Shown one piece after another: positions 4,321 through 31,725 of a stretch of DNA of 56,860 nt. This DNA is from Bacteroidaceae bacterium (GTDB taxonomy: Bacteria; Bacteroidota; Bacteroidia; Bacteroidales; Bacteroidaceae). Under the pieces are notes generated by a model, which made no database searches, had not been told where the DNA came from, and saw nothing but the letters and a program-made list of their open reading frames with translations. Where the stretch lies: contig JAFRNY010000090.1 in the NCBI GenBank assembly GCA_017429945.1, positions 1 to 56,860 of the forward strand. The letters are read 5' to 3'. A program made the position numbers and the translations under genes. Position 1 is the stretch's first letter; each line of letters starts with the position of its first letter.

Positions 4321-5136
4321 ATGGAAAAGAAAGCAATCATCGTAGGTGCCAGTTCGGGCATCGGGCAGGAGGTGGCCAAACTCCTGCTGGCCGACGGCTG
4401 GCGCCTGGGCGTGGCCGCCCGCAGGGAGGAGAAGCTGAGGGAGCTGCAAGCGCAGGCTCCTGAGCGCGTGGAGATCATGGCTATCGACGTCACGAGCGAT
4501 GACGCCGACCAGCGCCTGCTTGCGCTCATCGACCGCCTCGGCGGCATCGACCTCTACTTTCACGCCTCGGGCATAGGTTTCCAGAACCGCGAGCTCAATG
4601 CCGACATAGAACTGCGCACAGCGGAGACTAACGCCAAGGGATTCATGCGTATGGTGGGGGCTGCCTATCGTTATTTTGCAGCCTCCTCCCGTCCCCCACG
4701 AGAGGGGGCGAACAGTTGCGAACAAGCGGAAAAGGGCGCCACCCCTCGGGTGGGACGGGAGGGGGTTATAGCTGCCATCACCTCCATTGCGGGCACCAAG
4801 GGCCTTGGACCTGCTCCGGCCTACTCTGCCACGAAAGCGCTGCAGGCCGCCTACCTCGAAGCATTGGAGCAGCAGGCATGCCAGCGTGGCCTGCCCATTC
4901 ACATCCTCGATATCCGTCCTGGTTTTGTAGATACCGCCCTGCTGCGCCCCTCCGACCCTTCGAAAGAGGCCGCTTTCACATATCCTATGATGATGCGGCC
5001 CGCCGACGTGGCGCGCGACATCGTCCGTTCTATCTACAAGCGTCGCCACGTACGCATCATCGACTGGCGCTACCGCTTGCTTACGGCAGGTTGGCGCCTG
5101 GTGCCTCGATGGCTGTGGCGCAGGATTAAGCTGTAA
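4321..5136 (+). CDS. short-chain dehydrogenase/reductase with an in-frame palindromic-element insertion
   Basis: This 271-residue NAD(P)-dependent SDR has the cofactor motif VGASSGIG at residues 8-15, an acidic DVTSDD after the third strand, catalytic Ser in TSIAG, and YSATK with Tyr168 and Lys172. The substrate cannot be told from sequence. Residues 122-147 are unlike any SDR: after AAYRYFA, where the family runs directly into the strand GVIAAITS, there is a Pro/Arg/Gly-rich insert encoded by a 78-base GC-rich palindromic element. The insert keeps the frame and lies in the loop before strand 5, so the enzyme may remain active. The gene starts 24 bases after the preceding stop. The C-terminus is basic (WRLVPRWLWRRIKL). 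Confidence 0.88.
   Translation: MEKKAIIVGASSGIGQEVAKLLLADGWRLGVAARREEKLRELQAQAPERVEIMAIDVTSDDADQRLLALIDRLGGIDLYFHASGIGFQNRELNADIELRTAETNAKGFMRMVGAAYRYFAASSRPPREGANSCEQAEKGATPRVGREGVIAAITSIAGTKGLGPAPAYSATKALQAAYLEALEQQACQRGLPIHILDIRPGFVDTALLRPSDPSKEAAFTYPMMMRPADVARDIVRSIYKRRHVRIIDWRYRLLTAGWRLVPRWLWRRIKL
4685..4762. repeat. GC-rich palindromic element inserted in frame in the SDR gene
   Basis: The outer arms CCTCCCGTCCC (4685-4695) and GGGACGGGAGG (4752-4762) are perfect inverted repeats. Two inner hairpins (CCCC-ACGAGA-GGGG and CACCC-CTCG-GGGTG-like) lie between them. The length is 78 bases, exactly 26 codons. The core GCGAACAAGCGGAAAAGGGC closely matches the element in mnmG at 31251-31340 (GCGAACAAGTGGCAAGGGGC), which sits in the opposite orientation relative to its gene. 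A piece of the core, CAAGCGGAAA, also occurs in the intergenic element at 11487-11596. Confidence 0.8.
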
Positions 5137-5140
5137 GGGA

Positions 5141-5230
5141 TCGGAATACTCGGAATACTCGGAATACTCGGAATAATCGGAATAATCGGATTACTCGGAT
5201 TAATCAGATTACTCCGAATACTCCGAATTT
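5141..5230. repeat. 9-bp tandem repeat array between convergent genes
   Basis: Ten units of nine bases, from TCGGAATAC through TCGGATTAC to TCCGAATAC, run from the SDR stop toward the bcp stop. A palindrome CGGAGCTCCG follows at 5231-5240. The last units contain the complement (TCCGA) of the first units (TCGGA), so the array can fold back on itself and might act as a bidirectional transcription end. Confidence 0.85.
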
Positions 5231-5252
5231 CGGAGCTCCGAAAGCTCTGAGT

Positions 5253-5705
5253 TTAGCGTGCCAGCAGCTGTTCGCCGTGGGTCTTTGTCTTAATCTGCTT
5301 GCCTGCGATGATGTCCTCGATGATGCCGTTCTCATCGATGATGAAGGTGGTGCGCACGGTGCCGAAGTATTTGCGGCCGTACATCGACTTCTCGGCCCAT
5401 ACGCCCATCTGCTCGACCAGCGAGTGCTCGGTATCGGCGATGAGGGGGAAGGGCAGTTCGTGCTTCTCCTTGAACTTCTGGTGGCTGGCAGCGCTATCTA
5501 CGCTTACGCCTACGACGGCGTAGCCCCTGCGGCGTAGCTCGCTGTAGTTGTCGCGCAGGCTGCAGGCCTCAGCTGTGCAGCCGCTGGTGTTGTCCTTCGG
5601 GTAGAAGTAAAGCACGAGTTTCTGTCCACTGAACTGACTGAGTCGGATCTCCTGTCCGTCCTCGTCTATGCCCAAGATCTCGGGCGCGCGGTCTCCTATT
5701 TGCAT
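5253..5705 (-). CDS. bcp: thioredoxin-dependent thiol peroxidase Bcp (atypical 2-Cys peroxiredoxin)
   Basis: This 150-residue cytoplasmic enzyme reduces hydroperoxides, using thioredoxin. The FYPKDNTSGCTAEACSLRD motif carries the peroxidatic Cys43 and resolving Cys48, the BCP/PrxQ pattern. The thioredoxin-like fold is complete (VVGVSVDS, KHELPFPLIAD, RTTFIIDENG). It lies 13 bases downstream of the glycerophosphodiesterase gene on the same strand and is probably co-transcribed from the promoter at 6522. Length is normal for the family. Confidence 0.95.
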   Translation of the reverse strand: MQIGDRAPEILGIDEDGQEIRLSQFSGQKLVLYFYPKDNTSGCTAEACSLRDNYSELRRRGYAVVGVSVDSAASHQKFKEKHELPFPLIADTEHSLVEQMGVWAEKSMYGRKYFGTVRTTFIIDENGIIEDIIAGKQIKTKTHGEQLLAR

Positions 5706-5718
5706 AGTGATTAATGTT

Positions 5719-6489
5719 TTATCTGATTAGCTCTTCGCAGCGGGCGGGCTCGTTGGTAGTGATATAGTCAACGCCGAGGGCCTTCATGGCGCGTATGTCC
5801 TCGGGCTTGTCAACGGTCCAGGTGTTCACGTTCATTCCCAGCCGATGCGCTTCGCCGACCCATTCGGGGTGCGCCTGGAACTTCGAGAAGTGGTAGTCGA
5901 TGCCATTGATGCCCATGTGGTTGAGGCTGGTAGGCGTGCGGTCGCCTTCGAGATATGCTACATCGGCCTCGGGTGCCATGGCATGAATCGTCAGGCAGGC
6001 TTCGATTGAGAAGGAGATATACATCACGCGGTCTTCGAGCCCTCGGCGGCGAATCTCGTTGACGGCCATGGCGGCACAGCGGCGGCTGCGCATGGGGTCG
6101 CGGTGGGGCTTAACCTCTACGATGAGGCGCGTGGGGCTCTTGCTGCGCTTCAAGATGCGTAGCAGGTGCTTCAGTTGGGGCATCCGCTCGCCGTTGCCGA
6201 GGCGCAGTCGCTTGCACTGGGCAAAGGACGCGTCCTGGAGCGAGACGCCTTGGTACTTGTCGTCGTGGTTGACCATGATGTGGTCGTCGCGCGTCAGCCA
6301 GATGTCGATCTCCGAACCGAAGATACCGAGGTCCATGGCGCGCTGCAGTGATGTGCGCGAGTTCTGGGCCGAACCTTCAGAGCGCCATTCGCCGCGATGG
6401 GCAATGGTCTGGCAGCGTGTTGTCTGTGCCATGCAAGGAGCTAAAGCCATGCAGGCGGCGATGAGGAGGATAAGATGACGAAGTTTCAT
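5719..6489 (-). CDS. secreted glycerophosphodiester phosphodiesterase
   Basis: The 256-residue protein has a Sec signal peptide (cleavage near AQ at residue 22) and a GDPD TIM barrel. Catalytic residues are visible: His31-Arg32 in AHRGEW, Glu60 and Asp62 in GSEIDIWLT, and His75 in VNHDD. VDYITTNEP ends the barrel. Such enzymes split deacylated phospholipids into glycerol-3-phosphate and an alcohol in the periplasm, supplying phosphate and glycerol. It heads a two-gene unit with bcp. Start is supported by a TATCTTTG promoter about 35 bases upstream. Confidence 0.9.
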   Translation of the reverse strand: MKLRHLILLIAACMALAPCMAQTTRCQTIAHRGEWRSEGSAQNSRTSLQRAMDLGIFGSEIDIWLTRDDHIMVNHDDKYQGVSLQDASFAQCKRLRLGNGERMPQLKHLLRILKRSKSPTRLIVEVKPHRDPMRSRRCAAMAVNEIRRRGLEDRVMYISFSIEACLTIHAMAPEADVAYLEGDRTPTSLNHMGINGIDYHFSKFQAHPEWVGEAHRLGMNVNTWTVDKPEDIRAMKALGVDYITTNEPARCEELIR

Positions 6490-6521
6490 ATTGTTTGGCG
6501 TTTAAAGGTCGATTGCGATTG

Positions 6522-6529
6522 CAAAGATA
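6522..6529 (-). promoter_or_regulatory. -7 promoter element of the GDPD-bcp unit
   Basis: The complement reads TATCTTTG, followed by CAATCGC, about 33 bases before the GDPD start codon. It matches TAnnTTTG. Confidence 0.6.
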
Positions 6530-6606
6530 GCTAAATATTGAACTTTTTTTCATTTTTCATAAAGAATTTCGCGGCTTTGTGTAATATTCTTCCGTAGAAG
6601 GGTGTA

Positions 6607-6632
6607 TATATTTGTAGAAAGGATTAATTTTG
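6607..6632 (+). promoter_or_regulatory. two overlapping -7-like elements ahead of the serpin gene
   Basis: TATATTTG at 6607-6614 and TAATTTTG at 6625-6632 both match TAnnTTTG. The ATG at 6657 follows 25-43 bases later. Either would make the upstream TTG at 6630 an unlikely start. Confidence 0.5.
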
Positions 6633-6656
6633 CAACACAATTTAAACAATCGCACA

Positions 6657-7925
6657 ATGAGAAAAAGAATGATTATGTTGGCAGCGCTCGCCGTGGCGCT
6701 GACAGCTGCGCCGTTGGCAGGATGCTCTGACGACGACCATGGCATTGAGATGCCCAAAGACAACACGTTTAAACCCATAACGCTGACGCGAGCCCAGCAG
6801 GAGTTGGTGACGGCCTCCAACGACTTCGCCTTCAACCTCTTCCGTCGTGCTACGCTTCCTGTCGATGGTGCATCGGGCTTATCCGCTCAGAAGAGTGCTA
6901 TCCTCTCACCGCTCAGCATCACCTACGCCCTCGGGATGCTCAACAACGGTGCCGCAGGCGAGACGCAGCAGCAGATAAATGAGGTGCTCGGCTTCGGCGA
7001 CACGGGAGCCGATGGCATCAATGCCTTCTGCCAAAAGATGCTCACCGAGGCGCCCACCCTGGACAAACTGACGAAGGTGATGATTGCCAACAACATCTAC
7101 GTGAACGAAGGCTACAGGCTACTCCCCGATTTCGTTGCCAAAGCAAACGAGTTCTACGATGCAAAACCTGAGACGCGCAACTTCCACGACGGCAAGACCT
7201 GCAGCGTCATCAACCGGTGGGCCAGCGACCACACTGATGGAATGATTGATAAGGTGCTGTCGGAAGACACGTTCAACCCCGATGCTGTGAGCTACCTACT
7301 CAACGCCATCTACTTCAAAGGCGCATGGAAGGAGAAATTCAGCAAGAGCCAGACTCGCAACGAGGCTTTCGAGGGCAGAGAGCAGAAGATTCCAATGATG
7401 CATCAGGAGCATGAGTTCAACTACACCGAGAACGAGCTCTGCCAGGCGTTGCGTCTGCCCTATGGCAATGGCGCTTACGCAATGACCATCCTCCTGCCAC
7501 GCGAAGGAACGACCGTGGACGAACTGCTGCTCTCACTCAACGCTGAGAGCTGGCAGCAGTATCGGTATATGGGCTGCGCCATCGTCGATGTCAAGTTGCC
7601 GCGATTCGAGTCGAAGACGGATTTGGACTTGAACGAGATCATGGCCAGTCTCGGTATGCCCAAGGCTTTCACCCCGTTTGAAGCTGAGTTCCCTAATTTC
7701 TGCAACGTGCCAACCTACATAGACATGATGAAGCAAGTGGCTCGCATCAAGCTCGACGAGGAAGGCACCGAGGCTGCTGCCGTCACCGTGATAGGTGATA
7801 TCGCTACATCTGTGCCCATGGAGCCGCAGCACGTCACTTTCCACGCCACCCGCCCCTTCCTCTACGTCATCAGCGAGCAGTCCACAGGCGCCATATTCTT
7901 CATCGGCAAGTACGTAGGCGACTAA
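6657..7925 (+). CDS. serpin family protease inhibitor, lipoprotein
   Basis: The 422-residue product begins with a lipoprotein signal (lipobox LAGC, Cys near residue 22) and a short polar linker, so it is probably tethered to the outer membrane. A full serpin domain follows: SPLSITYALGMLNNGAAGETQQQI, NNIYVNEGY, YLLNAIYFKGAWKEKF and the MMHQ strand. The reactive-centre hinge is DEEGTEAAAVT, with small residues as needed for an inhibitory serpin, and the C-terminal RPFLYVI.....GAIFFIGKY is intact. The P1 residue should lie in VIGDIATSVPM but cannot be fixed from sequence. A likely role is protection from host or competitor serine proteases. Confidence 0.93.
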   Translation: MRKRMIMLAALAVALTAAPLAGCSDDDHGIEMPKDNTFKPITLTRAQQELVTASNDFAFNLFRRATLPVDGASGLSAQKSAILSPLSITYALGMLNNGAAGETQQQINEVLGFGDTGADGINAFCQKMLTEAPTLDKLTKVMIANNIYVNEGYRLLPDFVAKANEFYDAKPETRNFHDGKTCSVINRWASDHTDGMIDKVLSEDTFNPDAVSYLLNAIYFKGAWKEKFSKSQTRNEAFEGREQKIPMMHQEHEFNYTENELCQALRLPYGNGAYAMTILLPREGTTVDELLLSLNAESWQQYRYMGCAIVDVKLPRFESKTDLDLNEIMASLGMPKAFTPFEAEFPNFCNVPTYIDMMKQVARIKLDEEGTEAAAVTVIGDIATSVPMEPQHVTFHATRPFLYVISEQSTGAIFFIGKYVGD

Positions 7926-8015
7926 GCAACTCAATGACTATTTTTGCAGCGTAACCTACCGTAACACCTTATGCGTCTGAAACAGCGACAGCAATAAAAC
8001 ATAACAAATACAACA

Positions 8016-9782
8016 ATGAGAACGAAACCACTCCCCTACTCCACCGCTGCGGGTCGCTTTGCGCGACTGCTCGCAGTGCTGATCAGCGTCAGCTTCACGC
8101 TTAATGTCCTCGCCTTTGAGCGCGAGATGATTTGGCCTAAGGGCAAGATGCCCGACGCTCAGGCTCATCAGATTGCCGCCATGACCGATGAGGCCGGTGC
8201 GCCTAAGTTCAAGGCCGACAAGCACCGCGTGGCCTATCTCGAGTGGTTCGATGCGCCGGCGGCCGATGTGAGGAACGGCGGTTGCATGATTCTCATCTCC
8301 GGTGGCGCCTACAACAACTGCTGCGACGTGGGGCTCATCAAGAAGTGGCGCGAGCGCTTCACGCAGCTGGGCTTCCAGTGCGTAAACTTCGTATATCGCA
8401 CGCCGCGGCCTACGGGATTGCCCGTATATCAGACGGCGTGGGAGGATGGCCAGCGCGCTGTGCGCCTCGTGCGCAGCGAGGCCCGCAAGCGTGGTTTCGA
8501 TCCCGAGCGGATAGGAGTGATAGGCATGTCGGCCGGCTCGCACCTGGGATTGCTCCTCGCCACCAGCTCGCAGACACCTGCCTACGCGCCCATCGACAAG
8601 CTCGACACCGTGGCCTGCCACATCAACTGGGCGCTGCTCAATGCCCCGGCCTACGTCACCACCGACGGCGAGAAGGGCACGCCGGCCACGCGTCAAGGCT
8701 ACGGCACGGACGTCCGACTCTCCTCTGTCTTCAAGTTCGACGCCAAGACCTGCCCCATCAGCCTGCAGCACGGAGGCAACGACGAATACACGCCCAATGG
8801 CTCAACGCTCATCTATCGCGAGCTGCGCAAGCGCAAGATACCCGCTGAGCTTCACCTCTATCCAGGCAAGGGCCATGGGGCCTTCGGATTGGAACGAACG
8901 GTGGAGTTCATGCGCCAGATGGGCTTCCTTGGTAAGCCTGAGGCTGAGGTGGCGCTGCTGGACCGCTATGCCAGCGACGATGCGCGCCGCGAGAAGCTGA
9001 CTGAGGATGTGTGGCCCGAAGGCCGTATGCCCGACGCACAGGACCACCAGTGCAAGCCCTATTTGGAATGGCACTTCCCCAAGGAACTGAAGACGAAGGC
9101 CATACAGATTATCTATTCCGGAGGCAGCTACGAGGGCAACGACCCCGACGGTTTCGAGGTGGCGCCTGCGCGCCGCTACCTGAACGAGCGCGGCATGACG
9201 GTCGTCACGATGAAGTATCGCACACCGCGCCCCAAGGGACTATCCAAGCACACTACAGCCTGGCAGGACCTGCAGCGCGCCATACGCATCGTGCGCAGCA
9301 AGGCCGAGAGCTATGGCCTCGACCCCAATCAGATAGGCATCATGGGCAGCTCGGCCGGAGGCCACCTGACGCTTATGGGCGTGACATCATCGCAGCACCG
9401 CGCCTACTGGCCCATCGACGACCTCGACAAGCTGCCGTGCAACGTGCAATGGGGCATTGGCATCTATCCCGCTTATGCCTTGACCGACGGTGCCGACGGA
9501 CATAACAAAGGCGGCGGCAACGACGACTCGGCCGTGCTGGTGCCCGAGTTCAGCTTCGACCTAAAGACAGCGCCCATGCTCTTCGTCCACGGCGACGCCG
9601 ACGGCTATGCAGCCATGAGCAGCGTGAAGACGTGGGAGAAGATGCGCGCCATGGGCATACAGAGCGAGCTCCACACGCTGGCCCTGCGCAACCATTGTTT
9701 CCAGCGAACAGCCTCGCCAGGCACTGGCAGCTACACTTGGCTCGACCGCATCGGCGACTTCCTGCAATACGTGCTCAAGTGA
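8016..9782 (+). CDS. secreted double-domain alpha/beta-hydrolase esterase
   Basis: The 588-residue protein has a signal-like N-terminus (hydrophobic residues about 17-34) and two consecutive alpha/beta-hydrolase domains of the carbohydrate esterase/BD-FAE type. Domain 1 (about 40-310) has the oxyanion ISGGAY, nucleophile GMSAG (Ser172), acid GGNDEYTPNGS and HGAFG. Domain 2 (about 325-588) has YSGGSYEGND, GSSAGG (Ser446), GDADGYAAMSS and NHCF. The same start (EMIWPKGKMPDAQ / DVWPEGRMPDAQ) and the shared RTPRPxGLxxxxTAWxDxQRA show that one domain arose by duplication of the other. Both triads look intact. De-esterification (acetyl or feruloyl) of plant cell-wall sugars is the likely job; the true substrate is unknown. 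Confidence 0.85.
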   Translation: MRTKPLPYSTAAGRFARLLAVLISVSFTLNVLAFEREMIWPKGKMPDAQAHQIAAMTDEAGAPKFKADKHRVAYLEWFDAPAADVRNGGCMILISGGAYNNCCDVGLIKKWRERFTQLGFQCVNFVYRTPRPTGLPVYQTAWEDGQRAVRLVRSEARKRGFDPERIGVIGMSAGSHLGLLLATSSQTPAYAPIDKLDTVACHINWALLNAPAYVTTDGEKGTPATRQGYGTDVRLSSVFKFDAKTCPISLQHGGNDEYTPNGSTLIYRELRKRKIPAELHLYPGKGHGAFGLERTVEFMRQMGFLGKPEAEVALLDRYASDDARREKLTEDVWPEGRMPDAQDHQCKPYLEWHFPKELKTKAIQIIYSGGSYEGNDPDGFEVAPARRYLNERGMTVVTMKYRTPRPKGLSKHTTAWQDLQRAIRIVRSKAESYGLDPNQIGIMGSSAGGHLTLMGVTSSQHRAYWPIDDLDKLPCNVQWGIGIYPAYALTDGADGHNKGGGNDDSAVLVPEFSFDLKTAPMLFVHGDADGYAAMSSVKTWEKMRAMGIQSELHTLALRNHCFQRTASPGTGSYTWLDRIGDFLQYVLK

Positions 9783-9829
9783 CAGGCTATTCCATCTTTA
9801 AGTAGATGCACACAATTAGTTCATATAAC

Positions 9830-9908
9830 AACGAATTATTCGAATTATACGAATTCTCTGCAAGACCTCAGAGGGACAAAAAAATTCGTATAATTCGTAT
9901 AATTCGTT
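9830..9908. repeat. 26-bp inverted repeat pair (AACGAATTATACGAATT type)
   Basis: The left arm 9830-9855 and right arm 9883-9908 are inverted repeats with one mismatch in 26 bases. Each arm is itself built of near-9-bp CGAATTATA units. The 27-base spacer contains CCTCAGAGGG. The element lies just before the M61 gene and could form a long hairpin in its leader. Reading frames that start upstream at 9806 run through it and are not thought to be the real start. Confidence 0.8.
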
Positions 9909-9940
9909 GTAGAAAAAAATCATATTTACCAGCGTTGACA

Positions 9941-11482
9941 ATGACAGCCCGATCCAGAATCTCCATTCTCTTTGCCGTGCTCATGCTTTTGTTCACGGCG
10001 GCCTGCAACCATCGACAGGCCGACTATCAGCTGACGTACACCGTGACTCCCGACACGGCAGGGCACTATCTGAATGTTCACCTTGCCTATAGCTCTGACA
10101 GCACCCTCCCCCACCCCACCGACGTGGTGCTGACCATGCCCCGCTGGGCGCCCGGCTACTACGAGATGCTCGACTTTGCCAAGCACCTGACGGACTTCAG
10201 TGCTCAGGACGCCCAAGGTCAAAAGCTCGAATGGCGCAAGGAGGGGCTGAACCGCTGGCGCGTGGCGCTGCCCGAGGACGGCCGTGCTGAAGTCTCCTAT
10301 CGCATCTATGCCAACCAGCGCGACGTGGCCTCCAGCCGCGTGGAAAGTGACATCGCTTTCGTGGCGCCTAACGGAGTCTTCATGTACGTGGACGGCCAGC
10401 AGGATCATGCCGTGACCGTACGCTTCCAGATGCCCGACGGATGGGCGCATATTGCCACGGGCATGAAGCCTCACGACGATGACCGTTGTGCCTTCACACC
10501 ACAGAATTTCGATGTGCTCTATGATTCGCCTCTCTTGCTGGGCAATTTCTATACAAAGAGATTCACGCACGAGGGCCACGACTATGAGTTTGCCCTCGAG
10601 ACGCCCGACGGAGCTGAGGAGATGCACCTCGAAGACAATTTCAAGCGCATCGTCACGGCTGCCACGCAGATGATGGGCGACGTGCCCTACGACAACTACT
10701 GCCTCATCCACATGGGACAGGGCGGCGGCGGACTGGAGCACTTAAATTCGCAGGCTTGCTACACCGACGGCACCTACCGCTTTGCCACGCGCCGCGAGGA
10801 GGTGAAGTTCCTGGCTTTCGTGGCTCATGAGTATTTCCATCTCTACAACGTCAAATGCATCAGGCCTGCCGAGCTGTGGCCGCTGGATTATGACCACGAA
10901 GCCATCACCCCGATGCTATGGGTCAGCGAGGGCCTGACGTGCTACTATGAGTTTCGTCTCCTGCGCAACGCGGGCATCGCTACGCCCGACGAAGCGCTGG
11001 AGCTGCTATCAACCTATTTTAGCCTCTATGCGCCCCACGAAGGCCAGCGTCATCAGAGCCTGCGGCAGAGCAGCTACGACATCTGGCTTAACTTCATGAA
11101 CCCCGACGACAACGCACGCGACGTACGTATCAACTACTATTTCAAAGGTCCCGTCATAGGTCTGCTCATGGACATCGACATCCGCCGTAAGACGCAGCAG
11201 CAGAAGTCGCTCGACGACGTGATGCGCCTGCTCTATCAGCGCTACTACCACGAGCTGCAGCGCGGCTTCACCGAAGAAGAGTTCTGGGATGCCTGCGCCG
11301 AAGTGGCCGGCCAGCCGCTCACGGACGTCCGTCACCTCGTGGACACCACCGACGACATCCCCTACTCCGACTATCTCAACGATGCCGGTCTCCGCGTGGA
11401 CACCGCCACATGGAGCATCCAGCGTGTGGACGCTCCAACAGCCGAGCAACAGCAATTCCTGAAGGCCATGAAGTTGGAATGA
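9941..11482 (+). CDS. M61 family metallopeptidase (glycyl-aminopeptidase type), lipoprotein
   Basis: Start 9941 gives a 513-residue protein with a lipoprotein signal (LLFTAACNH, Cys near residue 23). The N-terminal beta-sandwich (about 28-180, VVLTMPRWAPGYYEMLDFAKHL) is typical of M61. The zinc motif HEYFHLYNVKCIRP (HExxH) and the distal Glu in WVSEGLTCYYE are intact, as is the GxGGLEHLNS motif. M61 enzymes usually end in a PDZ domain; here the chain stops about where it would begin (NDAGLRVDTATWSIQ), so the protein is shorter than usual. It probably acts in the periplasm or on the outer membrane as an aminopeptidase. Upstream frame extension to 9806 was rejected. Confidence 0.9.
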   Translation: MTARSRISILFAVLMLLFTAACNHRQADYQLTYTVTPDTAGHYLNVHLAYSSDSTLPHPTDVVLTMPRWAPGYYEMLDFAKHLTDFSAQDAQGQKLEWRKEGLNRWRVALPEDGRAEVSYRIYANQRDVASSRVESDIAFVAPNGVFMYVDGQQDHAVTVRFQMPDGWAHIATGMKPHDDDRCAFTPQNFDVLYDSPLLLGNFYTKRFTHEGHDYEFALETPDGAEEMHLEDNFKRIVTAATQMMGDVPYDNYCLIHMGQGGGGLEHLNSQACYTDGTYRFATRREEVKFLAFVAHEYFHLYNVKCIRPAELWPLDYDHEAITPMLWVSEGLTCYYEFRLLRNAGIATPDEALELLSTYFSLYAPHEGQRHQSLRQSSYDIWLNFMNPDDNARDVRINYYFKGPVIGLLMDIDIRRKTQQQKSLDDVMRLLYQRYYHELQRGFTEEEFWDACAEVAGQPLTDVRHLVDTTDDIPYSDYLNDAGLRVDTATWSIQRVDAPTAEQQQFLKAMKLE

Positions 11483-11486
11483 GGCA

Positions 11487-11596
11487 AAGCCCCTCTCCCC
11501 GCTCCCCCCGTGGGGGGGAGAGCTCCATATTCTCTGGAAACCTCTCAAGCGGAAACGCAGTCCTCCCCCCCCACGGGGGGAGTTAGAGAGGGGCTT
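11487..11596. repeat. intergenic GC-rich palindromic element
   Basis: Arms of 34 bases (11487-11520 and 11563-11596) are inverted repeats; each carries its own CTCCCCCC-GT-GGGGGGG hairpin. A 42-base middle contains CAAGCGGAAA, shared with the SDR element. It begins 4 bases after the M61 stop codon and may also end transcription. It is architecturally the same as the element inside mnmG at 30852-30944 (two hairpin arms around a spacer). Confidence 0.8.
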
Positions 11597-11678
11597 GACG
11601 AATGAGATGTGCCAATTAGCCTGTATCTATTGTTGCAATAGCCTGCAGGCATAATCCTGAAGGGCTCGTTAACTTATT

Positions 11679-11762
11679 CACGTCACAATGTGATATGATC
11701 ACGTCACGTTGTGATATCATCACGTCACAACGTGACGTGAACAAATCACATCGTGATTTCAT
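11679..11762. repeat. 21-bp tandem array of TCAC-N3-GTGA palindromes
   Basis: Four units of exactly 21 bases start at 11679, 11700, 11721 and 11742. Each has a dyad core: TCACAATGTGA, TCACGTTGTGA, TCACAACGTGA, TCACATCGTGA. The central three bases vary but the arms do not, the signature of a protein-binding or cruciform constraint. It lies between the convergent M61 and SLC13 genes. Confidence 0.85.
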
Positions 11763-11841
11763 GAATCCGATAAGGCGATAATCCTTTCAAAGCGCCTCAA
11801 CCTGGAAATCTTACTTATCTGAAATAACTTTTGAAAACAAT

Positions 11842-11877
11842 AATCCCGCCGAGAAGCATGAGTCTCTCGGCGGGATT
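11842..11877. terminator. bidirectional hairpin terminator
   Basis: AATCCCGCCGAGA (11842-11854) pairs perfectly with TCTCGGCGGGATT (11865-11877). On the plus strand TTATTTTAC follows, on the minus strand ATTGTTTTC. It serves the SLC13 gene (minus) and may also stop readthrough from the M61 side. Confidence 0.8.
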
Positions 11878-11924
11878 TTATTTTACTCGCGTTGCTGTAC
11901 CGGTTTATCCGTGATGCTGTATCC

Positions 11925-13778: not shown

Positions 13779-13785
13779 CGAAGAA

Positions 13786-19160: not shown

Positions 19161-19207
19161 GTTTTCACTTTTCCGTCCCGTCTTTTCTTCGCGGATTTTA
19201 TCCGCGA
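19161..19207. repeat. left REP-like end of the RAYT element
   Basis: The hairpin TCGCGGAT-TTT-ATCCGCGA (19189-19207) overlaps the transposase stop codon. Reading outward on the minus strand it is followed by AGAAAAGACGGGACGG. The right end has the same order in the opposite direction (hairpin 20271-20289, then AGAAAGGACGGGACGA), so the gene is bounded by inverted REP-like units. Confidence 0.7.
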
Positions 19208-20231
19208 TCCACCAGCATTCTCCCCATCTCATTCAGCGCCACAAAGCGATACCTTAGCGATGACACAGGAATAGGCGCATAGCTGAGATGCTTGGCCTCG
19301 GCCTTTCGCCGCAGCGTCTCCTCTACTGCCGCCTGAACGGCAGGCATAGTGAATGCCCCCTCGTGCGGTTCCATCAACAACAACCGCCCCTTGGAGCAGG
19401 CTTCAAAATACACCCCACCAGGCTTGTAGTAGCGCTCCTGGTCCGAGCCAGCGGCCGGGAAGCCATCGTTCAGCAGCACGACCAGCGGAAAGCCCTTCTC
19501 CCTGACTGTGCGTGCAATGAGCCGCTCGCCTTGGCTGATGGCTGCGGTGTAGGTGATAGCACCATTACTCGCTGCTGCCAACACCTCTTTCAAGCGGCTC
19601 TGCACCTGGTCTTCACTGGCACTGCGCGATATCTCCACAAGCTGCCGGTCGGGCCAATCCAGCAGGAAATGGTTGCCCAACGACGTAAACTCCAGTGCCA
19701 GGACCTCAGTCTGCCGATGCAGTCGGAAGAGGTCTGGTGTAGCTTGCGCTGCCAGGCTCGCTCTGCGTTGGCCTTCACATATTCAATCATGGCATGGAGT
19801 TGCCCTTTGTGGGTGAGCACTCTGTAATACGGAGGGCCGTCATACAGCGTTTCGGTGAAACCCAGCGTGCGTGCTTCTGCCTTGCATCCCTGCATATACC
19901 CGCGCAGCACCTCCTTGATGCTTCGTGGCATCGTGCGCGTCACGTGGAGCACGATGTGATGGTGGTCTGGCATCACCTTGTCAGCGAGGATCTTTATCTC
20001 TGGGCAGAACTGCAACATCCGCTGTTGCTGATGGATGAGTGCCCATCCGATAGACGTCTTTTCCACCTCAGCGTTAGTGCCATTGTGGGTAAGGGTGCCG
20101 AAGAGGGCACGGCGGCCGTTGGCGACCATGGTCACATGCACGATGCATGGGTTCCGCCACGTGCCCGGCTGCAGCCAGGTGAAGGGCTTTGTAGGGAGGG
20201 TAGAGGGGGTGGGGGAGTGAGTGATGGGCAT
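19198..20231 (-). pseudogene. REP-associated tyrosine transposase (RAYT), frameshifted
   Basis: The N-terminal frame (from 20231) is a Y1/HUH transposase of the IS200-like RAYT group: the HUH motif is in MPDHHHIVLHV and the catalytic Tyr region is in LHAMIEYVKANAERAWQRK. The matching C-terminal part lies in the -1 frame down to 19198 (ATPDLFRLHRQTEVLALEF, LGNHFLLDWPDRQLVEISRS), a Rossmann-like extension common in Bacteroidetes RAYTs. The break is at about 19741-19745: restoring one G (AAGCT to AAGGCT) rejoins QRK-ATPDLFR. No slippery heptamer is present, so this is a mutation, not programmed frameshifting. Inverted hairpin elements flank the gene. Confidence 0.8.
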
Positions 20232-23710: not shown

Positions 23711-23785
23711 TAACATCTCTTCACGTTTCTAAAGATTTCTTCTAAGATTGAATCTCTTTCTCCTTTTTTGCCGTACAGAATTTTT

Positions 23786-23822: not shown

Positions 23823-23937
23823 TTTATTGGCCTCTGAGAATCGCGTAGAAGCTTCATTCTCGTCCGAGGGGCAGGAATTTAAGCGTCTCAGAGGGTGAAA
23901 TTATGATTTTTCACTTTTCACTTTTTCGCTTTTCACT

Positions 23938-24825: not shown

Positions 24826-24836
24826 TGTTTCTCTTG

Positions 24837-25097
24837 TTATTTATTGTTGATGATTAGGTAAATAATACATATTGCTGCAAGAACAGCCCACGGCCAGAAG
24901 TCTTTGGTTGTCCAATTCTCTTGTCTCCATGTCTTGAAGATGATGTAGGGAGTGACAAGTAGTAAACTCATTATCCATAGTGCCACGCAGGCCTCTTTAT
25001 AGTAGCCAGACAGTTTGACTACTAAGCCGATTGCTGCCGTGATTATTCAGGTGATGAACAGATTATATAGCCAGTCTGTAGTTGTAAACTTTTTCAT
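24837..25097 (-). pseudogene. small membrane protein gene with an in-frame TGA at codon 17
   Basis: The frame begins MKKFTTTDWLYNLFIT, meets TGA at 25047-25049, then continues for 69 codons without a stop (IITAAIGLVVKLSGYYKEAC...VALWIMSLLLVTPYIIF...TTKDFWPWAVLAAICIIYLIINNK). The downstream part is clearly protein-like: three hydrophobic spans, charged loops, normal codon use. A TGG-to-TGA change would explain it. No ATG follows the stop until WIMSLL, so most of the protein is lost unless read through. It sits between the GH140 gene and deoC, 11 bases before deoC. Confidence 0.65.
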
Positions 25098-25159
25098 TAT
25101 CGCTTATCTTTATGCCTGCGAAGCGAACCGCTCGTGGACTTTTGCAGGGTAATGTTTTC

Positions 25160-26593: not shown

Positions 26594-26660
26594 CTTTCCT
26601 TGTCTTTGGTGGAATTTCCTCGTTTCCTGATGATAGGTGGGGCAGGGGAGGGGCTCCTTT

Positions 26661-27137
26661 TTATTCCTTGTTGTGGGTGTCCATGATAATTGTCACAGGC
26701 CCATCGTTGCAGAGCGATACCTTCATCTCTGCTCCAAACTCACCGTGTCCGACAGGTCGACTTATGGTTTCAGATAGCTTTTGAATAAAGGCTTCATAGA
26801 GCGGAACGCTGATTTCATGGGACGCAGCTCTAAGCCACGACGGTCGGTTGCCTTTCTTGTAGCTGGCAAATAGCGTGAACTGACTGACAACTATGATGTT
26901 ACCGTCCGTTCCATTGTGCTCTCCGGCTATGTCCAAAATGCTTCGGTTCATAACGCCGTTCTCGTCGTCGAACACGCGCAGGGCGGCTACTTTTCGTACT
27001 AACCAATCCACATCTTCTTGTGTATCAGTAGATTCTATTCCTAATAGAATGACGTAGCCAAGTCCTTCGAACTCGGCATTTACGCGACCGTCTATTGTTA
27101 CTTTCGCTCCATTTGCCCGTTGAATTACTATTCGCAT
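26661..27137 (-). CDS. dtd: D-aminoacyl-tRNA deacylase
   Basis: Start 27137 (MRIVIQRANGAKVTIDG) gives 158 residues. The enzyme removes D-amino acids (and Gly from tRNA-Ala) from tRNAs. The hallmark motifs VVSQFTLFASYKKGNRPSW and the C-terminal NDGPVTIIMD with its GP pair are present. The upstream in-frame ATG at 27188 overlaps uvrC and is not family-like, so it was rejected. It lies 28 bases downstream of uvrC in the conserved order apt-uvrC-dtd. Confidence 0.94.
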   Translation of the reverse strand: MRIVIQRANGAKVTIDGRVNAEFEGLGYVILLGIESTDTQEDVDWLVRKVAALRVFDDENGVMNRSILDIAGEHNGTDGNIIVVSQFTLFASYKKGNRPSWLRAASHEISVPLYEAFIQKLSETISRPVGHGEFGAEMKVSLCNDGPVTIIMDTHNKE

Positions 27138-27165
27138 ACCTCTATCTTTGATTGTTTTATTCGTT

Positions 27166-29001
27166 TTATTCGTTATTTTCTGATTCACCGCTCTGTTGTG
27201 CGAAGTAGCGCTTTACTGCTTTGGTTTTGGCATCACCGATGACTTTCGAGAGTTCCTCTTCGCTTGCTTCGCGAATTCGCTTTACGCTTTTGAACGCCTT
27301 CAGCAGGGTTTGCTTTGTCTTTGGGCCGATGCCAGGTATGGAGTCTAATTCCGACCTCAGCTGGCTCTTGCTGCGTTTGTCGCGATGGAAGGTGATGGCG
27401 TAGCGGTGTACCTCATCCTGGATCTGCGTGAGCAGGCGGAAGAGAGCGCTGTCTTGTTTCAAAGCTACCGTCATCGGAGGGTTTCCGTAGAGCAGCTCGT
27501 GGGTGCGGTGGCGGTCGTCTTTGGCGAGGCCTGCAATGGGAATAGCCAAGCCTAACTCACCTTCCACGACTTCGCGCACTACGCTCATTTGTCCGGCGCC
27601 GCCATCGGTAATTATGAGGTCTGGAAGCTGCGTTCCTTCCTCCTTCATTCGACTGTAGCGTCGGCGTACGACCTCTTGCATCGAGGCGTAGTCATCAGGC
27701 CCAACGACCGTTTTTATATTATATTTGCGGTAATCAGCCTTGCTCGGTTTGCATTTCTTAAAGACTACGCAGCCCGCTACAGCATCCGTTCCGGATATGT
27801 TTGAGTTGTCGAAGCATTCGATCTGATAGGGTAGTGTGGGGAGTTTCAAGTGGTCTTGTATCTCCTTCATCAGGCGTACTGCTTTTTGCTCTGGATTCAG
27901 CTTCTCTTGCTGTTTTAGGCGGTCGACCTTGTACTGCCTTACATTCAGCTCTGAGAGCGCCAACAGCTGCTTCTTATCGCCCCTTTGAGGTATTGTGATC
28001 TCTATATCTTCGAGTGGAAGTTCCACGTGGAACGGAAGCACTATCTCTTTAGCTTCTGAGCCCCATCGGTCTCGCATATCCATGATGCCGCGCACGAGCA
28101 GTTCCTCTTCGGATTCATCGAGCTTTTTCTTGTATTCAAACGTGAATGCCTGGTTGATTGCGCCCTCAACGACGTGTAGGTAGTTGATGTAGGCTATTCG
28201 CTCATCGTTGTCGATTGAGAAAACGTCGATATTGTGGCCTGTTGAAGTTATGATCTGGCTCTTTTCCTGGTGCGCCGTGATGAGGTCGTAGCGGCGTTTC
28301 ACTATCTGTGCCTCCTCGAATTTCATCTCCGTTGCCAGCTGCTGCATCTGTGCGAGCATCTCTTTTCTCAGTGCCGCTGTGTCGCCTTTCAGAATACGTA
28401 TTGCTGCGTTGATATAGTCCATGTACTCCTCATGGCTTTGCAGACCTACGCATGGGCCGAAACAGTTCTTCATGTGGTACTCCAGGCACAGCTTATATTT
28501 GCCGTTCTCCACGCCTTCGCGCGTCATCGGCTGATGGCATCGTCTGATAGGGTAGAGGTTTTTGAAGAGCTCCAGCAGACCGTTTATAGTGGGTATATGG
28601 CTGTACGGCCCGAAGTATATTGCCCCTTTGCGGTCGATATGGCGCGTCTTGAATATGCGTGGCAGGTATTCTTTCGTTACGGCTATTGAAGGGTAGCTTT
28701 TGCCGTCTTTGAGCAGCACATTATATCGCGGCTGAAATTGTTTGATGAGCTGATTCTCGAGCAGAAGAGCCTCTGCCTCGGTCTTTACAACGGTGTAGTG
28801 TATGTCGTAGATCTTAGATACGAGAATAGCTGTCTTCCGCGAGTCGTGCTCGCGGTTGAAATAGCTTGAGACGCGCCGCTTGAGGTTCTTCGCTTTGCCG
28901 ACATAGATCACCGTCCCGTGTTCGTCGAAGTACTGATAGCTGCCTGGCGACTCGGGAAGGCGTTGTAGAATGCTCTTTATGTGTTCTTCGCGCGTACGCA
29001 T
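27166..29001 (-). CDS. uvrC: excinuclease ABC subunit UvrC
   Basis: The 611-residue protein makes the dual incisions of nucleotide-excision repair with UvrB. It has a GIY-YIG nuclease (residues 12-95, PGSYQYFDEHGTVIYVGKAKNLKRRVSSYF), the Cys-rich CLEYHMKNCFGPCVG, a UVR motif (about 200-235), the RNase-H-like 3' nuclease (IECFDNSNISGTDAVAGCVVF, LIITDGGAGQ) and helix-hairpin-helix motifs (SIPGIGPKTKQTLLKAF). Start 29001 overlaps the apt stop by one base (TGATG); a TTG one codon earlier is less likely. A parS-like palindrome lies inside the gene at 28020-28033, encoding FHVE. Confidence 0.96.
   Translation of the reverse strand: MRTREEHIKSILQRLPESPGSYQYFDEHGTVIYVGKAKNLKRRVSSYFNREHDSRKTAILVSKIYDIHYTVVKTEAEALLLENQLIKQFQPRYNVLLKDGKSYPSIAVTKEYLPRIFKTRHIDRKGAIYFGPYSHIPTINGLLELFKNLYPIRRCHQPMTREGVENGKYKLCLEYHMKNCFGPCVGLQSHEEYMDYINAAIRILKGDTAALRKEMLAQMQQLATEMKFEEAQIVKRRYDLITAHQEKSQIITSTGHNIDVFSIDNDERIAYINYLHVVEGAINQAFTFEYKKKLDESEEELLVRGIMDMRDRWGSEAKEIVLPFHVELPLEDIEITIPQRGDKKQLLALSELNVRQYKVDRLKQQEKLNPEQKAVRLMKEIQDHLKLPTLPYQIECFDNSNISGTDAVAGCVVFKKCKPSKADYRKYNIKTVVGPDDYASMQEVVRRRYSRMKEEGTQLPDLIITDGGAGQMSVVREVVEGELGLAIPIAGLAKDDRHRTHELLYGNPPMTVALKQDSALFRLLTQIQDEVHRYAITFHRDKRSKSQLRSELDSIPGIGPKTKQTLLKAFKSVKRIREASEEELSKVIGDAKTKAVKRYFAQQSGESENNE
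28020..28033. other. parS: parS-like centromere site inside uvrC
   Basis: GTTCCACGTGGAAC is a perfect 14-base palindrome, matching the bacterial parS core GTTnCACGTGnAAC bound by ParB. A second copy lies 1.6 kb away at 29577-29592. Here it falls within coding sequence. Confidence 0.6.
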
Positions 29002-29531
29002 CAAATCTTGATTAGTGTGGTTATTTCTGCGTCTTCCGGGAAGACAGCCCTGCCATGGAGGCCTTCGATGGTCAGCTCGATGATAAAATTGATGAATGTC
29101 TGCTTTGGGTTGAACTGATTGACGAGGTTATAAGCAGCCAGCATTGAGCCGCCGGTGGCGAGTAGGTCGTCGTGGAGGAGCACAACGTCTTTCTCTGTGA
29201 TGGCATCTGTGTGGATCTCTATGGTATCCTTGCCATACTCTTTCATATAGCTTTCTTTGCGCGTCTCAGCCGGTAGTTTGCCAGGCTTGCGTGCCATTAC
29301 GAAGCCTGCGCCCAATTTGTATGCGAGGGCGGCACCGACAACGAAGCCGCGGCTTTCTATGCCCACGACTTTCGTTATGCCTTTGTCTTTGTAGAGTTCG
29401 TAGAGCTCGTTGACCATTATGCGCAGGCATTTGGGATGCTTGTAGAGGGTGCTTACGTCCTTGAACTGGATTCCCGGAATGGGGAAATCAGGCACATTGC
29501 GTAGGTGCTTGAGTAGGTATTCGTTGTTCAT
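29001..29531 (-). CDS. apt: adenine phosphoribosyltransferase
   Basis: The 176-residue purine-salvage enzyme makes AMP from adenine and PRPP. PGIQFKDVSTL, VVGIESRGFVVGAALAYKLGAGFVMARKPGKLP and the PRPP loop VVLLHDDLLATGGSMLAA are all present. It lies between mnmG and uvrC, overlapping uvrC by one base. The gap to mnmG carries a parS-like palindrome. Confidence 0.96.
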   Translation of the reverse strand: MNNEYLLKHLRNVPDFPIPGIQFKDVSTLYKHPKCLRIMVNELYELYKDKGITKVVGIESRGFVVGAALAYKLGAGFVMARKPGKLPAETRKESYMKEYGKDTIEIHTDAITEKDVVLLHDDLLATGGSMLAAYNLVNQFNPKQTFINFIIELTIEGLHGRAVFPEDAEITTLIKI

Positions 29532-29576
29532 CTTTTGTGGTTAAATGGTTAGTGACTTCTTATTTAATTTGCGTGG

Positions 29577-29592
29577 CGTTCCACGTGGAACG
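29577..29592. other. parS: parS-like centromere site between mnmG and apt
   Basis: CGTTCCACGTGGAACG is a perfect 16-base palindrome with the parS core. It lies in the short gap upstream of apt. With the site at 28020 it forms a pair 1.56 kb apart. Confidence 0.65.
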
Positions 29593-29679
29593 TAGTTGAG
29601 GGCGAGGCGGACGGACCGCCTCGAACTTGACCCACGGTGGGTGGGGGAGGCTGGTGATATGGTTGTCGGCGAGAGCTGC

Positions 29680-31725
29680 TTATCTGCCGAGGAGTACGAG
29701 TAGGACGTTGACGTCGGAGGGTGACACGCCCGGTATGCGAGACGCTTGTCCGAGGGTCTCGGGGTCGTGTGCTGCGAGTTTCTGTCGCCCTTCAGTTGAA
29801 ATGGATTGGAGGGTGGAGTAGTCGAATCGGCCGCGAATCTTGATGTTCTCCAGGCGGTGCATCTTTTCGGCTTGTTCCACTTCGCGCTGGATATATCCTT
29901 TGTACTTTATCTCTATCTCTGCCTGCTCTACTATCTCGTCGTGGCGGTCAGTGACAGACGCCAAGAGTTCTTGCAGACGGGGTAGGGCAGTGGAGAGGTT
30001 TGCGATGCTTAGTTGCGGGCGCCCGAGCAGTTCTACGAGCTTGCAGCCGCGAGTGAGAGGTGCTGTGCCGAGGCTTTCGAGGAGGCCGTTGACATCGGCC
30101 ATCTTCACAGAATATTCCTCAGCAAAGCGTATGATTCGCTCTACCTCTTCGTGCTTGCGTTGATAGTATCGCAGGCGTTCGGCCGTAGCAACGCCCATGT
30201 CGTAGCCAATCGGTGTCAGGCGTGCGTCAGCATTGTCCTGGCGTAGCAGGATGCGGTATTCAGCACGTGAGGTGAACATTCGGTAGGGCTCGTCAACTCC
30301 TTTGCATACGAGGTCGTCGATGAGCACGCCTATGTAGGCCTGGTCGCGCTGCAGCACGAGTGGTTCTTGTCCTGTGCAATGGCGTGCGGCATTAATTCCG
30401 GCTATAAGTCCTTGACCTGCAGCCTCTTCATAGCCTGTGGTGCCATTGACTTGTCCTGCGAGGAAGAGGCCAGAGATGACACGAGACTCCAGTGAGTGAT
30501 GCAGCTGTGTAGGGTCAAAGAAGTCATATTCAATGGCATAGCCCGGACGATAAATCTCCAGATTGCGGAAGGCAGGGATGAGTCGAAGGGCTTCAATCTG
30601 CACCTCAATGGGCAGGGATGAAGAGAAACCATTAAGGTAGTATTCGTTGGTATTCGTGCCTTCGGGCTCCAGGAAGAGCTGGTGCTGATCCTTGTCGGGG
30701 AAGGTCACGAGCTTGGTCTCTATACTGGGGCAGTAACGTGGGCCAATGCTCTGTATCTGTCCGTTGTAGAGGGGTGAGTCGGGCAGCCCGGCACGAAGGC
30801 GCTCGTGGACGGCCTCGTTCGTGTAAGTGATCCAGCAAGGTAAAGACCCTTCCCCGACCCCTCCCGTGAGGGAGGGGAGGCCTCCGGGTAGTAGAAGACG
30901 AGCATCGCGCCAGCCTCCCCCCTCCCTTACGGGAGGGGTTGGGGGTGGGCCCATATATGAGAACTTTCTCCCTTCGGTGTCGCCGGGCTGTTCGGTCATA
31001 AGAGAGAAATCGACTGAGCGGGCGTCTATGCGGACAGGGGTGCCTGTCTTCATGCGAGCGACGCGTATGCCGTGTTGAGCTATGCTTTCTGCCAACTCCA
31101 GAGAGGGCGGTTCGGCACAGCGGCCACCAGGGAGCTTGACACGGCCTATGTGCATGAGACCATTGAGGAAGGTGCCAGCGGTGAGGATGATACTCTTGGC
31201 GCGGAAGGTCATGCCGAGGTATGTCTCGACGCCAACGGCCATGACACCGCCCTCAGTGCCCTCCCGCCCCCCCCGAGGGGGTGCGAGCATATCCTCGGGC
31301 GAACAAGTGGCAAGGGGCGCTCCGGCGGGACGTGAGGGGGCTGTAATCAACCGTCTCACTTGGTCCTGCCAGATATGTAGGTTGGGTGTGTTCTCGAGCA
31401 CTTCGCGCCATGCCCAGATGAACTTTCCTCGGTCGCATTGGGCACGGGGGCTCCACATGGCAGGCCCTTTGGAGCGATTGAGCATCCGGAATTGAATGGT
31501 TGTAGCATCTGTGACGTGCCCCATGGCCCCTCCGAGTGCATCTATCTCTCTGACAATCTGTCCTTTGGCAATACCGCCTATGGCGGGGTTGCAAGACATT
31601 TGCGCAATCTTGTTCATGTCCATAGTAATAAGTAGCGTGCTCGCACCAATGCGCGCAGCAGCGTGAGCCGCCTCGCATCCAGCGTGGCCGGCACCTATTA
31701 CGATGACATCATAATACTTTTCCAA
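29680..31725 (-). CDS. mnmG: tRNA uridine-5-carboxymethylaminomethyl synthesis enzyme MnmG with two in-frame palindromic insertions
   Basis: MnmG (GidA) with MnmE modifies U34 of several tRNAs. The FAD motif VIVIGAGHAGCEAA, NPAIGGIAKGQ, LTAGTFLNGLMHIG, GTPVRID, SIETKLVTFPDKDQHQLFLEPEG and LFLAGQVNGTTGYEEAAGQGL are intact, as is the helical C-terminus. At 681 residues it is about 55-60 longer than the family. The excess is two inserts: residues about 129-158 (Pro/Gly-rich, between RRLIT and VMAVGVETY) and about 261-291 (PPTPPVREGG...PSLTGGVGEG, between GRKFSYMG and SLPCWITYT). Both are encoded by GC-rich palindromic elements and keep the frame. The gene starts 14 bases after the flippase gene. 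Confidence 0.95.
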   Translation of the reverse strand: MEKYYDVIVIGAGHAGCEAAHAAARIGASTLLITMDMNKIAQMSCNPAIGGIAKGQIVREIDALGGAMGHVTDATTIQFRMLNRSKGPAMWSPRAQCDRGKFIWAWREVLENTPNLHIWQDQVRRLITAPSRPAGAPLATCSPEDMLAPPRGGREGTEGGVMAVGVETYLGMTFRAKSIILTAGTFLNGLMHIGRVKLPGGRCAEPPSLELAESIAQHGIRVARMKTGTPVRIDARSVDFSLMTEQPGDTEGRKFSYMGPPPTPPVREGGGWRDARLLLPGGLPSLTGGVGEGSLPCWITYTNEAVHERLRAGLPDSPLYNGQIQSIGPRYCPSIETKLVTFPDKDQHQLFLEPEGTNTNEYYLNGFSSSLPIEVQIEALRLIPAFRNLEIYRPGYAIEYDFFDPTQLHHSLESRVISGLFLAGQVNGTTGYEEAAGQGLIAGINAARHCTGQEPLVLQRDQAYIGVLIDDLVCKGVDEPYRMFTSRAEYRILLRQDNADARLTPIGYDMGVATAERLRYYQRKHEEVERIIRFAEEYSVKMADVNGLLESLGTAPLTRGCKLVELLGRPQLSIANLSTALPRLQELLASVTDRHDEIVEQAEIEIKYKGYIQREVEQAEKMHRLENIKIRGRFDYSTLQSISTEGRQKLAAHDPETLGQASRIPGVSPSDVNVLLVLLGR
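30852..30944. repeat. palindromic element inserted in frame in mnmG (two-hairpin type)
   Basis: Left arm 30852-30880 and right arm 30914-30944 are inverted repeats; each contains its own hairpin CCCCTCCCGTGAGGGAGGGG (left) or its TAAGGG variant (right). A spacer of about 33 bases separates them. The total is 93 bases, exactly 31 codons. The same architecture is seen in the intergenic element at 11487-11596. Confidence 0.8.
31251..31340. repeat. palindromic element inserted in frame in mnmG (SDR-type core)
   Basis: Arms CCCTCCCGCC (left) and GGCGGGACGTGAGGGG (right, complementary with small gaps) enclose GCGAACAAGTGGCAAGGGGC, which matches the core of the SDR element (GCGAACAAGCGGAAAAGGGC) in 17 of 20 bases. 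Because mnmG is on the minus strand, the element is read in the opposite orientation to the one in the SDR gene, yet both keep an open frame. Confidence 0.75.

Follow-up and report, generated by a model that had tools for sequence, protein, structure and literature searches.

How did two unrelated genes on one bacterial contig come to carry the same palindromic sequence inside their reading frames? The window analysed here comprises positions 1–56,860 of contig JAFRNY010000090.1 of the Bacteroidaceae bacterium assembly GCA_017429945.1. An SDR oxidoreductase gene on its + strand (4321–5136, 271 aa; PF00106, E 2.5e-26) holds an 86-nt palindromic dimer at 4681–4766, and mnmG/gidA on the − strand (29680–31725, 681 aa; TIGR00136, 761 bits) holds a second 86-nt copy at 31256–31341; on the + strand, both elements are in the same orientation, so that SDR reads the element in the sense and mnmG in the antisense direction, and both frames run open through the inserts. 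A first-pass annotation of the window had proposed these two elements, their opposite orientations and a shared core, GCGAACAAGYGGMAARGGGC, which indeed lies at 4718–4737 and 31299–31318 with zero mismatches to the proposed pattern. The elements are real, and the ends it gave (4685–4762 and 31251–31340) are revised to those above; its figure of 26–30 added codons becomes a net gain of about 23 for SDR and about 30 for MnmG relative to short-loop orthologues (hand count on alignments). Taking the evidence as a whole, we consider the inserts to be, very probably, copies of a non-autonomous mobile repeat that resembles a REPIN, i.e. a pair of inverted repetitive extragenic palindromes (REPs) around a spacer, itself non-autonomous.

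The genome is a 2.96 Mb metagenome-assembled genome, 82% complete, and the repeat is dispersed throughout it. The core recurs at three further places with 1–2 mismatches (the short core search gave four forward and one reverse match, against zero forward and one reverse for the control, the same pattern reversed), and BLASTN with the mnmG copy as query gave 39 genome matches at E ≤ 1. Alignment of 18 copies led to one 92-nt founder, GCCCCCTCCCGTCCCCCCCGAGGGGGGGCG followed by a spacer of about 30 nt and the inverted arm; the spacer in most copies carries ATCCTCGG or a close variant of it. Two types of right arm occur, ..GGGGGGGACGGGAGGGGGC or ..GGGGGGATTTAGAGGGGGC. The founder thus consists of two GC-rich hairpins in inverted orientation with a short spacer between them, i.e. 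terminal inverted repeats are present. We call this family A; sister families measure about 100–110 nt. The SDR copy is the founder minus 6 central nt, and the mnmG copy has lost 6 nt from its right loop. With a covariance model (R1) the number of distinct places in the genome came to 61, of which 48 reach E ≤ 1e-3 (101 output rows, merged by hand, as the palindrome matches on both strands).

Beyond what the first-pass annotation had described, and apart from this genome-wide extent, the window contains two further elements. mnmG has a second in-frame insert at 30845–30950 (+ strand), from a different palindromic family with arms CCCCTCCC..GGGAGGGG; the family A covariance model does not match it, and as a query it returned 87 match rows in the genome including its own place, mostly single hairpins. 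A non-coding copy, a family B dimer, lies at 11487–11594 (+ strand), in the spacer directly past the stop of the gene at 9806–11482. The set of copies examined below comprises 55: 54 of the 61 R1 places, together with the mnmG insert at 30845. The seven places left out (C69:1, C67:66697, C26:40246, C71:9682, C47:38205, C92:12885 and C16:27148) are weak, partial or at a contig end, and only the first two are under 1e-3; eight of the 55 are weak model matches (E 0.002–8) that may be sister-family hairpins.

Many copies, some of them within genes, had been named as the expected support, and the genome does hold many, mostly in genes. An open frame extending at least 40 codons past both element ends surrounds 46 of the 55 copies (39 of 46 examined when only R1 places at E ≤ 1e-3 are taken), and 42 of the 55 lie in open reading frames (ORFs) with a Pfam family. 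Besides the window pair, Pfam was run on 37 spanning ORFs and gave families for 34, as it did for SDR and MnmG. Because 89% of the window is coding in the gene set of this analysis, these counts mean that the elements do not avoid genes. Judged by Pfam names, Lpd has three copies, and PolA, an NtrC-type regulator, RsmF, MnmG and a BtuF-like protein have two each. Further hosts include UvrA, PriA, an Mfd-like protein, CysS, IspG, two SpoU methyltransferases, TruA and GcvT, as well as FeoB, PduO, PnuC, an OTC-like protein, an amidohydrolase protein, a TonB receptor and glycosidases. In several hosts the element falls within a single domain alignment (that of PnuC, 6–211, spans the element at 74–104). 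We also note that in two fused cobalamin enzymes, CbiJ/CbiD (L070:1115-3006) and TP_methylase/CbiC (L076:201-1706), an element separates one domain from the other.

None of the six frames of the family A consensus contains a stop, and nonetheless 20 of 22 family A gene copies begin at the first codon position (GCC CCC TCC CGT.., giving APSRPPRGG...PPRGGREG). The bias is significant against a one-third expectation (p=3e-8) and against the phase share of RGCY sites in 42 window genes, of which 41% are phase 0 (p=1.6e-6); without a weak copy in CysS it is 19/21 (p=3.4e-6). Orientation shows no such preference, with 10 sense and 11 antisense among 21 gene copies (the host strand for SDR and C20:3207 being taken from Pfam or orthologues and not from the longest ORF). 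The earlier idea of selection to keep the repeat translatable in several frames or on either strand is thus half right: strands are used about equally and the consensus is open in six frames, whereas a single codon phase accounts for nearly all copies. A purine precedes 20 of the 21 gene copies and a pyrimidine follows all 21, and there may be a 2-bp GC target duplication at the insertion sites. Length changes also differ by location: those of the family A gene copies (−6, −6, +33 and +54) are all multiples of three, versus none of the four in spacer or gene-end copies (−1, −1, +5 and +31; Fisher 0.014), a test that omits two 89-nt copies, C1:42960, which is 3 nt shorter than the founder and has an unclear host, and C28:2729, a weak spacer match (E 5.9). 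In these small numbers, gene-copy length changes match what a coding constraint predicts.

Orthologues without the insert, which the first-pass annotation had also called for, were found in the same genus for SDR, MnmG and Lpd, the three hosts for which absence was established. SDR had tblastn matches in 26 other same-genus genomes, and 23 orthologues were fetched: the loop is short (like ERGEGH) in 15, clear element remnants remain in two (AAPSREG in L235, ASSRGGREEA in L228) and possible ones in two (L227, L237), and other inserts occupy the site in four. Site 1 of MnmG is empty in L118, L119 and L120, whose best segments are 79–80% identical, as it is in many sequences of lower similarity; L089, L104 and L123 have remnants like SPRGGREGA, L094 a scar, APEGA, and other relatives unrelated longer linkers. 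At MnmG site 2, L111–L114 and many others have short GExRxLPQ loops, element-like inserts are present in L088, L094, L097 and L099, and unrelated linkers occur elsewhere. Lpd matched in 25 of 61 genus genomes; among 24 other same-genus sequences compared, 23 have a short loop at site 1 and 16 have one at site 2, site 3 being more variable. In Lpd of L250 both site 1 and site 2 are filled, the insert at site 2 being recognisable as the same element, and L251, L262 and L270 have other hairpins at site 2. The frame is kept in all aligned SDR, MnmG and Lpd sequences, and there are no internal stops among the tblastn matches listed.

To judge from these sequences, the in-frame remnants, the scars and the insert-free orthologues argue for insertion followed by in-frame decay. 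Two outcomes named beforehand as contrary, close relatives all having an insert of unrelated sequence at the same site and an insert occurring nowhere else in the genome, were not encountered. A nuance is needed for MnmG: because many same-genus orthologues hold other or decayed in-frame inserts at both sites, these are recurrently used loops. As an aside, the stretch just downstream of the SDR gene (5141–5228) is a tandem 9-nt repeat, TCGGAATAC, and similar units are apparently translated in variable MnmG loops of L107, L091 and L124 (by eye).

The variability of the two MnmG loops across the genus could suggest ordinary expansion of disordered loops, with no mobility involved. We give this next to no credence, as the same 92-nt sequence occurs in many unrelated genes. 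The loops themselves are in agreement with the earlier expectation for MnmG: in an AlphaFold model built on a 38-sequence alignment (mean pLDDT 78.9), the two inserts correspond to segments 135–158 and 262–292, two of the seven segments under pLDDT 50, both predicted between beta strands. The solved MnmG/GidA chains 3cp8 and 3cp2 align in three blocks, with gaps at both insert sites. A second alternative is that the inserts are never translated, being spliced out or bypassed in the manner of introns or of byps-like elements. The RNA hairpins are indeed very stable: −61.9 kcal/mol (z −7.2) for the SDR copy, −81.3 (z −7.5) for the C43 copy and −75.2 (z −4.7) for the second mnmG insert (30840–30955). 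The mnmG family A copy folds at −38.7 kcal/mol with z +0.1 and has therefore lost its hairpin, and among element copies RNA covariation amounts to a double change in one of 22 pairs. The open frames led us to reject splicing and bypass, and with gene-copy indels that are codon multiples and in-frame remnants in relatives this explanation becomes very improbable.

Outside this genome, R1 matches 15 of 24 other same-genus genomes and one of 16 other-family genomes at E ≤ 1e-3; at E ≤ 1e-6 this genome stands alone among 149 of the order, a sample that lists no other member of the genus. Among relatives' elements, 16 of 20 fetched lie in open frames of at least 40 codons on both sides (no Pfam check). 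The nearest named relatives by MnmG are uncultured Bacteroidales, Bacteroidaceae and Prevotellaceae, several from deer or labelled rumen.

How would such a repeat move? The element would enter RGCY-like sites and add whole codons, 90 nt corresponding to 30 codons if the terminal GC is common to the target. Copies would persist where the peptide sits in a loop or linker, out-of-frame or core insertions being lost, and later decay, perhaps in part by collapse of the palindrome, would leave short in-frame scars. (A common insertion length for all families was considered and rejected: family A fits 90 nt and family B does not.) For the enzyme, our tentative nomination as the most likely mobiliser is a DUF559 Vsr-like nuclease found between arms of the same repeat, which would cut the target or the hairpin, with repair then copying the element.

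A more conventional possibility is that these are ordinary REPINs mobilised in trans by a REP-associated tyrosine transposase (RAYT). Two inverted hairpins around a spacer and the lack of target duplication are as expected for this, and the genome has a Y1 gene (L026), an ORF resembling REP-associated transposases (L028, below cut-off) and, in the window, a broken relative. RAYTs were sought with PF01797 in 61 genus genomes, our own included, and by comparing the RAYT-like ORF of the window with its own genome. Family A–C hairpins were found at none of the 10 Y1-type loci scanned out of 13; the inverted repeat seen by eye at L026 is of another sort, and the window gene has no hairpin of such a kind. 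Nor does PF01797 track element number, being absent in two genomes with 22 matches (G016) and 28 matches (G020; strands counted apart). Divergent RAYTs can evade PF01797, as the score of 10 bits for that of the window shows, and we are dealing with incomplete genomes. With different or no flanking hairpins at the scanned Y1-type loci, we lowered the standing of RAYT as mobiliser and now regard it as distinctly unlikely. As to the genes themselves, the RAYT-like gene of the window (19198–20231) is broken into two overlapping frames; L028, its relative in the same genome, is a single frame of 432 aa with REP_Tyr_transpos below cut-off; and three Y1 transposase genes of the same genus (L279, L280 and L281) have their own REP-like hairpins on both sides, unlike families A–C.

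The nomination of DUF559 stems from the C9:6283 copy: in a single frame of 623 aa it joins ispG to a DUF559 gene, with a family A right arm past DUF559. A relative, G016, has the same gene order, with a family B dimer before DUF559 and a family B right arm after it. The bracketed gene belongs to the DUF559/PF04480 family (NCBIfam PRK09767; PDB 3hrl), and in our genome it retains the D..ExD pattern ADFYCPHAKLVIELDG. Inverted arms around DUF559 outscore all background windows in both loci (only 11 windows for G016). IspG is seen extended in frame by a palindromic dimer plus a DUF559 domain in two species (L069:703-2571 and L052:236-1972). DUF559 could instead be a passenger, a nuclease gene that inserts into palindromic dimers which spread by another route. 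It was present in only two of the loci taken around genus elements, and some insertion sequences target REPs, according to the part of the literature consulted (PMC1525189). To our knowledge, moreover, DUF559 proteins have no recombinase domain. Against the passenger explanation, the arm family in each of the two loci is one that is repeated in the respective genome (five of seven other G016 elements fetched resemble family B by eye).

A wider sample also bears on this. We took 21 plasmid DUF559 loci from 42 matching records: six chosen before any flank had been seen, six after a first look, one of which (Deinococcus NW-56) was chosen with a prior hint, and nine later still. The 21 records left out comprised duplicates within a genus together with E. 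coli, Neisseria, Pseudomonas, Thermoactinomyces, Lelliottia and others. For L290, L293, L295, L324, L325, L327 and L330, seven loci in all, the DUF559 bounds are those of the match or a rough guess in place of an annotated gene. Hairpins of pyrimidine/purine composition with stems of at least 9, within 150 nt of DUF559, occur in 15 of the 21 loci versus 1.9 expected from same-size windows of the same loci (p=1e-15, or p=1e-9 with a background floor of 0.1), and in five of the six loci chosen blind versus 0.6 expected (p=8e-6, or p=2e-4 with every background floored at 0.1); the p-values assume independence, and some species are related. In 12 of 21 loci (two of the six blind ones), the inverted repeats that bracket the gene beat 95% of background windows, which also speaks against a passenger; such repeats reach about 70 nt in Deinococcus psychrotolerans and about 90 nt in Pseudanabaena sp. 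ABRG5-3. One test or the other is satisfied in 18 of the 21; the Methylobacterium, Streptomyces and Bacillus loci fail both, that of Methylobacterium having a long upstream hairpin excluded by the composition rule. In Azospirillum brasilense, at least 40 places on one replicon carry the dimer that adjoins DUF559. A 1621-aa ORF of Pseudanabaena galeata contains a dimer-DUF559-dimer unit in frame; PF04480 is at 373–474, followed by Eco57I and MmeI methylase domains.

The association is seen in Bacteroidota, Pseudomonadota, Cyanobacteriota and Deinococcota. It is an association, and it fits an autonomous arm-DUF559-arm element but also a passenger gene. With the evidence above, we hold the passenger explanation to be rather unlikely. 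A possible generalisation, somewhat speculative, is that palindromic elements of a widespread class owe their mobility to DUF559 Vsr-like nucleases: arm-DUF559-arm units would be autonomous and short dimers their non-autonomous offspring. Since hairpins free of stops in any frame, as seen for the family A consensus, leave a host frame open, both forms could land in frame in genes. Among open-licence papers that name DUF559, no title or abstract start refers to such repeats. The surroundings of this gene were noted as well: DUF559 and dimers in frame in a methyltransferase ORF near brxC on a cyanobacterial plasmid (L324:2861-7726), DUF559 with dimers adjoining a gene annotated as BREX PglX on another (L318), and DUF559 with inverted hairpins between sufB and sufC in Sphingomonas parapaucimobilis (L319:3905-4390).

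Several points weigh against the account of a mobile repeat given here. Nine of the 55 copies lie outside spanning ORFs, and four of the 46 in-ORF copies (C1:42960, C47:27894, C47:30262 and C47:30430) have no Pfam-supported host. No 3–8 bp target-site duplication rose above shuffled flanks in 21 gene copies, and no empty site is near enough to place junctions to the base. Few copies enter the length test, and counting the weak C28:2729 changes it to 4/4 versus 1/5 (p=0.04). The ORF filter (at least 300 aa for MnmG and Lpd, 200 for SDR) could miss frame-broken orthologues, nine of the 24 same-genus genomes had no R1 match at E ≤ 1e-3, and the incompleteness of our own genome counts here too. 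The two genomes share a single position of DUF559, next to ispG, and this therefore perhaps reflects one old event. Directly observed are the dispersal of the copies, their position in frame in genes in both orientations, and orthologues both free of the insert and with in-frame remnants of it.

The window has another small gene between inverted repeats: at 44374–44822, a four-helix-bundle gene (TIGR02436; 44413–44805) is flanked by inverted 8-nt tandem repeats, ATAAGGTT before and AACCT-type after, and its neighbours resemble fumarate reductase/succinate dehydrogenase subunits (by eye).

The first-pass reading of these inserts is thus supported, and we extend it to a system, spanning the genus, of palindromic insertions that are translated, with a nuclease as candidate mobiliser; the nuclease link would be new if upheld. 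Rickettsia and a small number of other groups are known to have palindromic insertions in frame; in this uncultured Bacteroidales lineage they affect dozens of genes, core ones included. Since young copies, empty sites, remnants and scars are found in one genus, the birth and decay of protein segments can be traced. Should DUF559 prove to be the mobiliser, an uncharacterised nuclease family would gain a function, and repeats said to be without a dedicated transposase would gain a candidate enzyme.

In the open-licence literature we found no title or abstract start describing these elements and nothing on palindromic elements in Bacteroidales, and a search for palindromic in-frame insertion with Prevotella matched only genome editing. 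Among known systems, REP dimers are described, in the parts of the review consulted, as hairpins with 20–100 bp spacers and GTAG or CGTC tags, mostly intergenic, with some inside uvrA, DNA polymerase I and tRNA pseudouridine synthase genes; those of CGTC type, with a CGTC tag, an 8–9 bp stem beginning AT and a CCA tail, occur in Bacteroidetes too and are said to lack a dedicated transposase (Di Nocera 2013, PMC3733652). Our elements are likewise hairpin dimers with a spacer, some of them intragenic, but GTAG is absent from the consensus of 18 copies, CGTC stands at the expected left-arm columns in 10 of 18, the stems are C/G-rich and do not start with AT, and most copies are intragenic. The REPIN architecture of two inverted hairpins around a spacer is shared; unlike a REPIN with its RAYT, we see no RAYT with family A–C flanks (10 of 13 Y1-type loci and the window gene, in incomplete genomes). 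Classical miniature inverted-repeat transposable elements have comparable terminal inverted repeats and differ by a target-site duplication, of which our 21 gene copies show none at 3–8 bp; DUF559 between matching arms is a candidate for the autonomous parent. The palindromic elements of Wolbachia (WPE) share the in-frame property. Enterobacterial ERIC and RU elements are, as far as the sources were consulted, small repeats translated within genes (PMC2229807; PMC2759123). Both ERIC/RU and WPE are thus small translated intragenic repeats like ours, in different hosts, likened by description and not by sequence. The closest parallel, as the first-pass annotation had seen, is the Rickettsia palindromic element (RPE), described in the part consulted as 105–146 bp, palindromic, and tolerated in frame in conserved protein genes (PMC2229807). 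The elements here are similarly palindromic, dispersed and in frame in conserved genes, with orthologues free of the insert, and are slightly shorter at 92 nt, with sister families of about 100–110 nt. They differ in belonging to a Bacteroidales genus and not to Rickettsia (the likeness is one of description), in that most examined copies are genic with one codon phase dominant, and in having a nuclease gene between the same arms. We file these repeats as RPE-like translated insertions and not as RPE proper.

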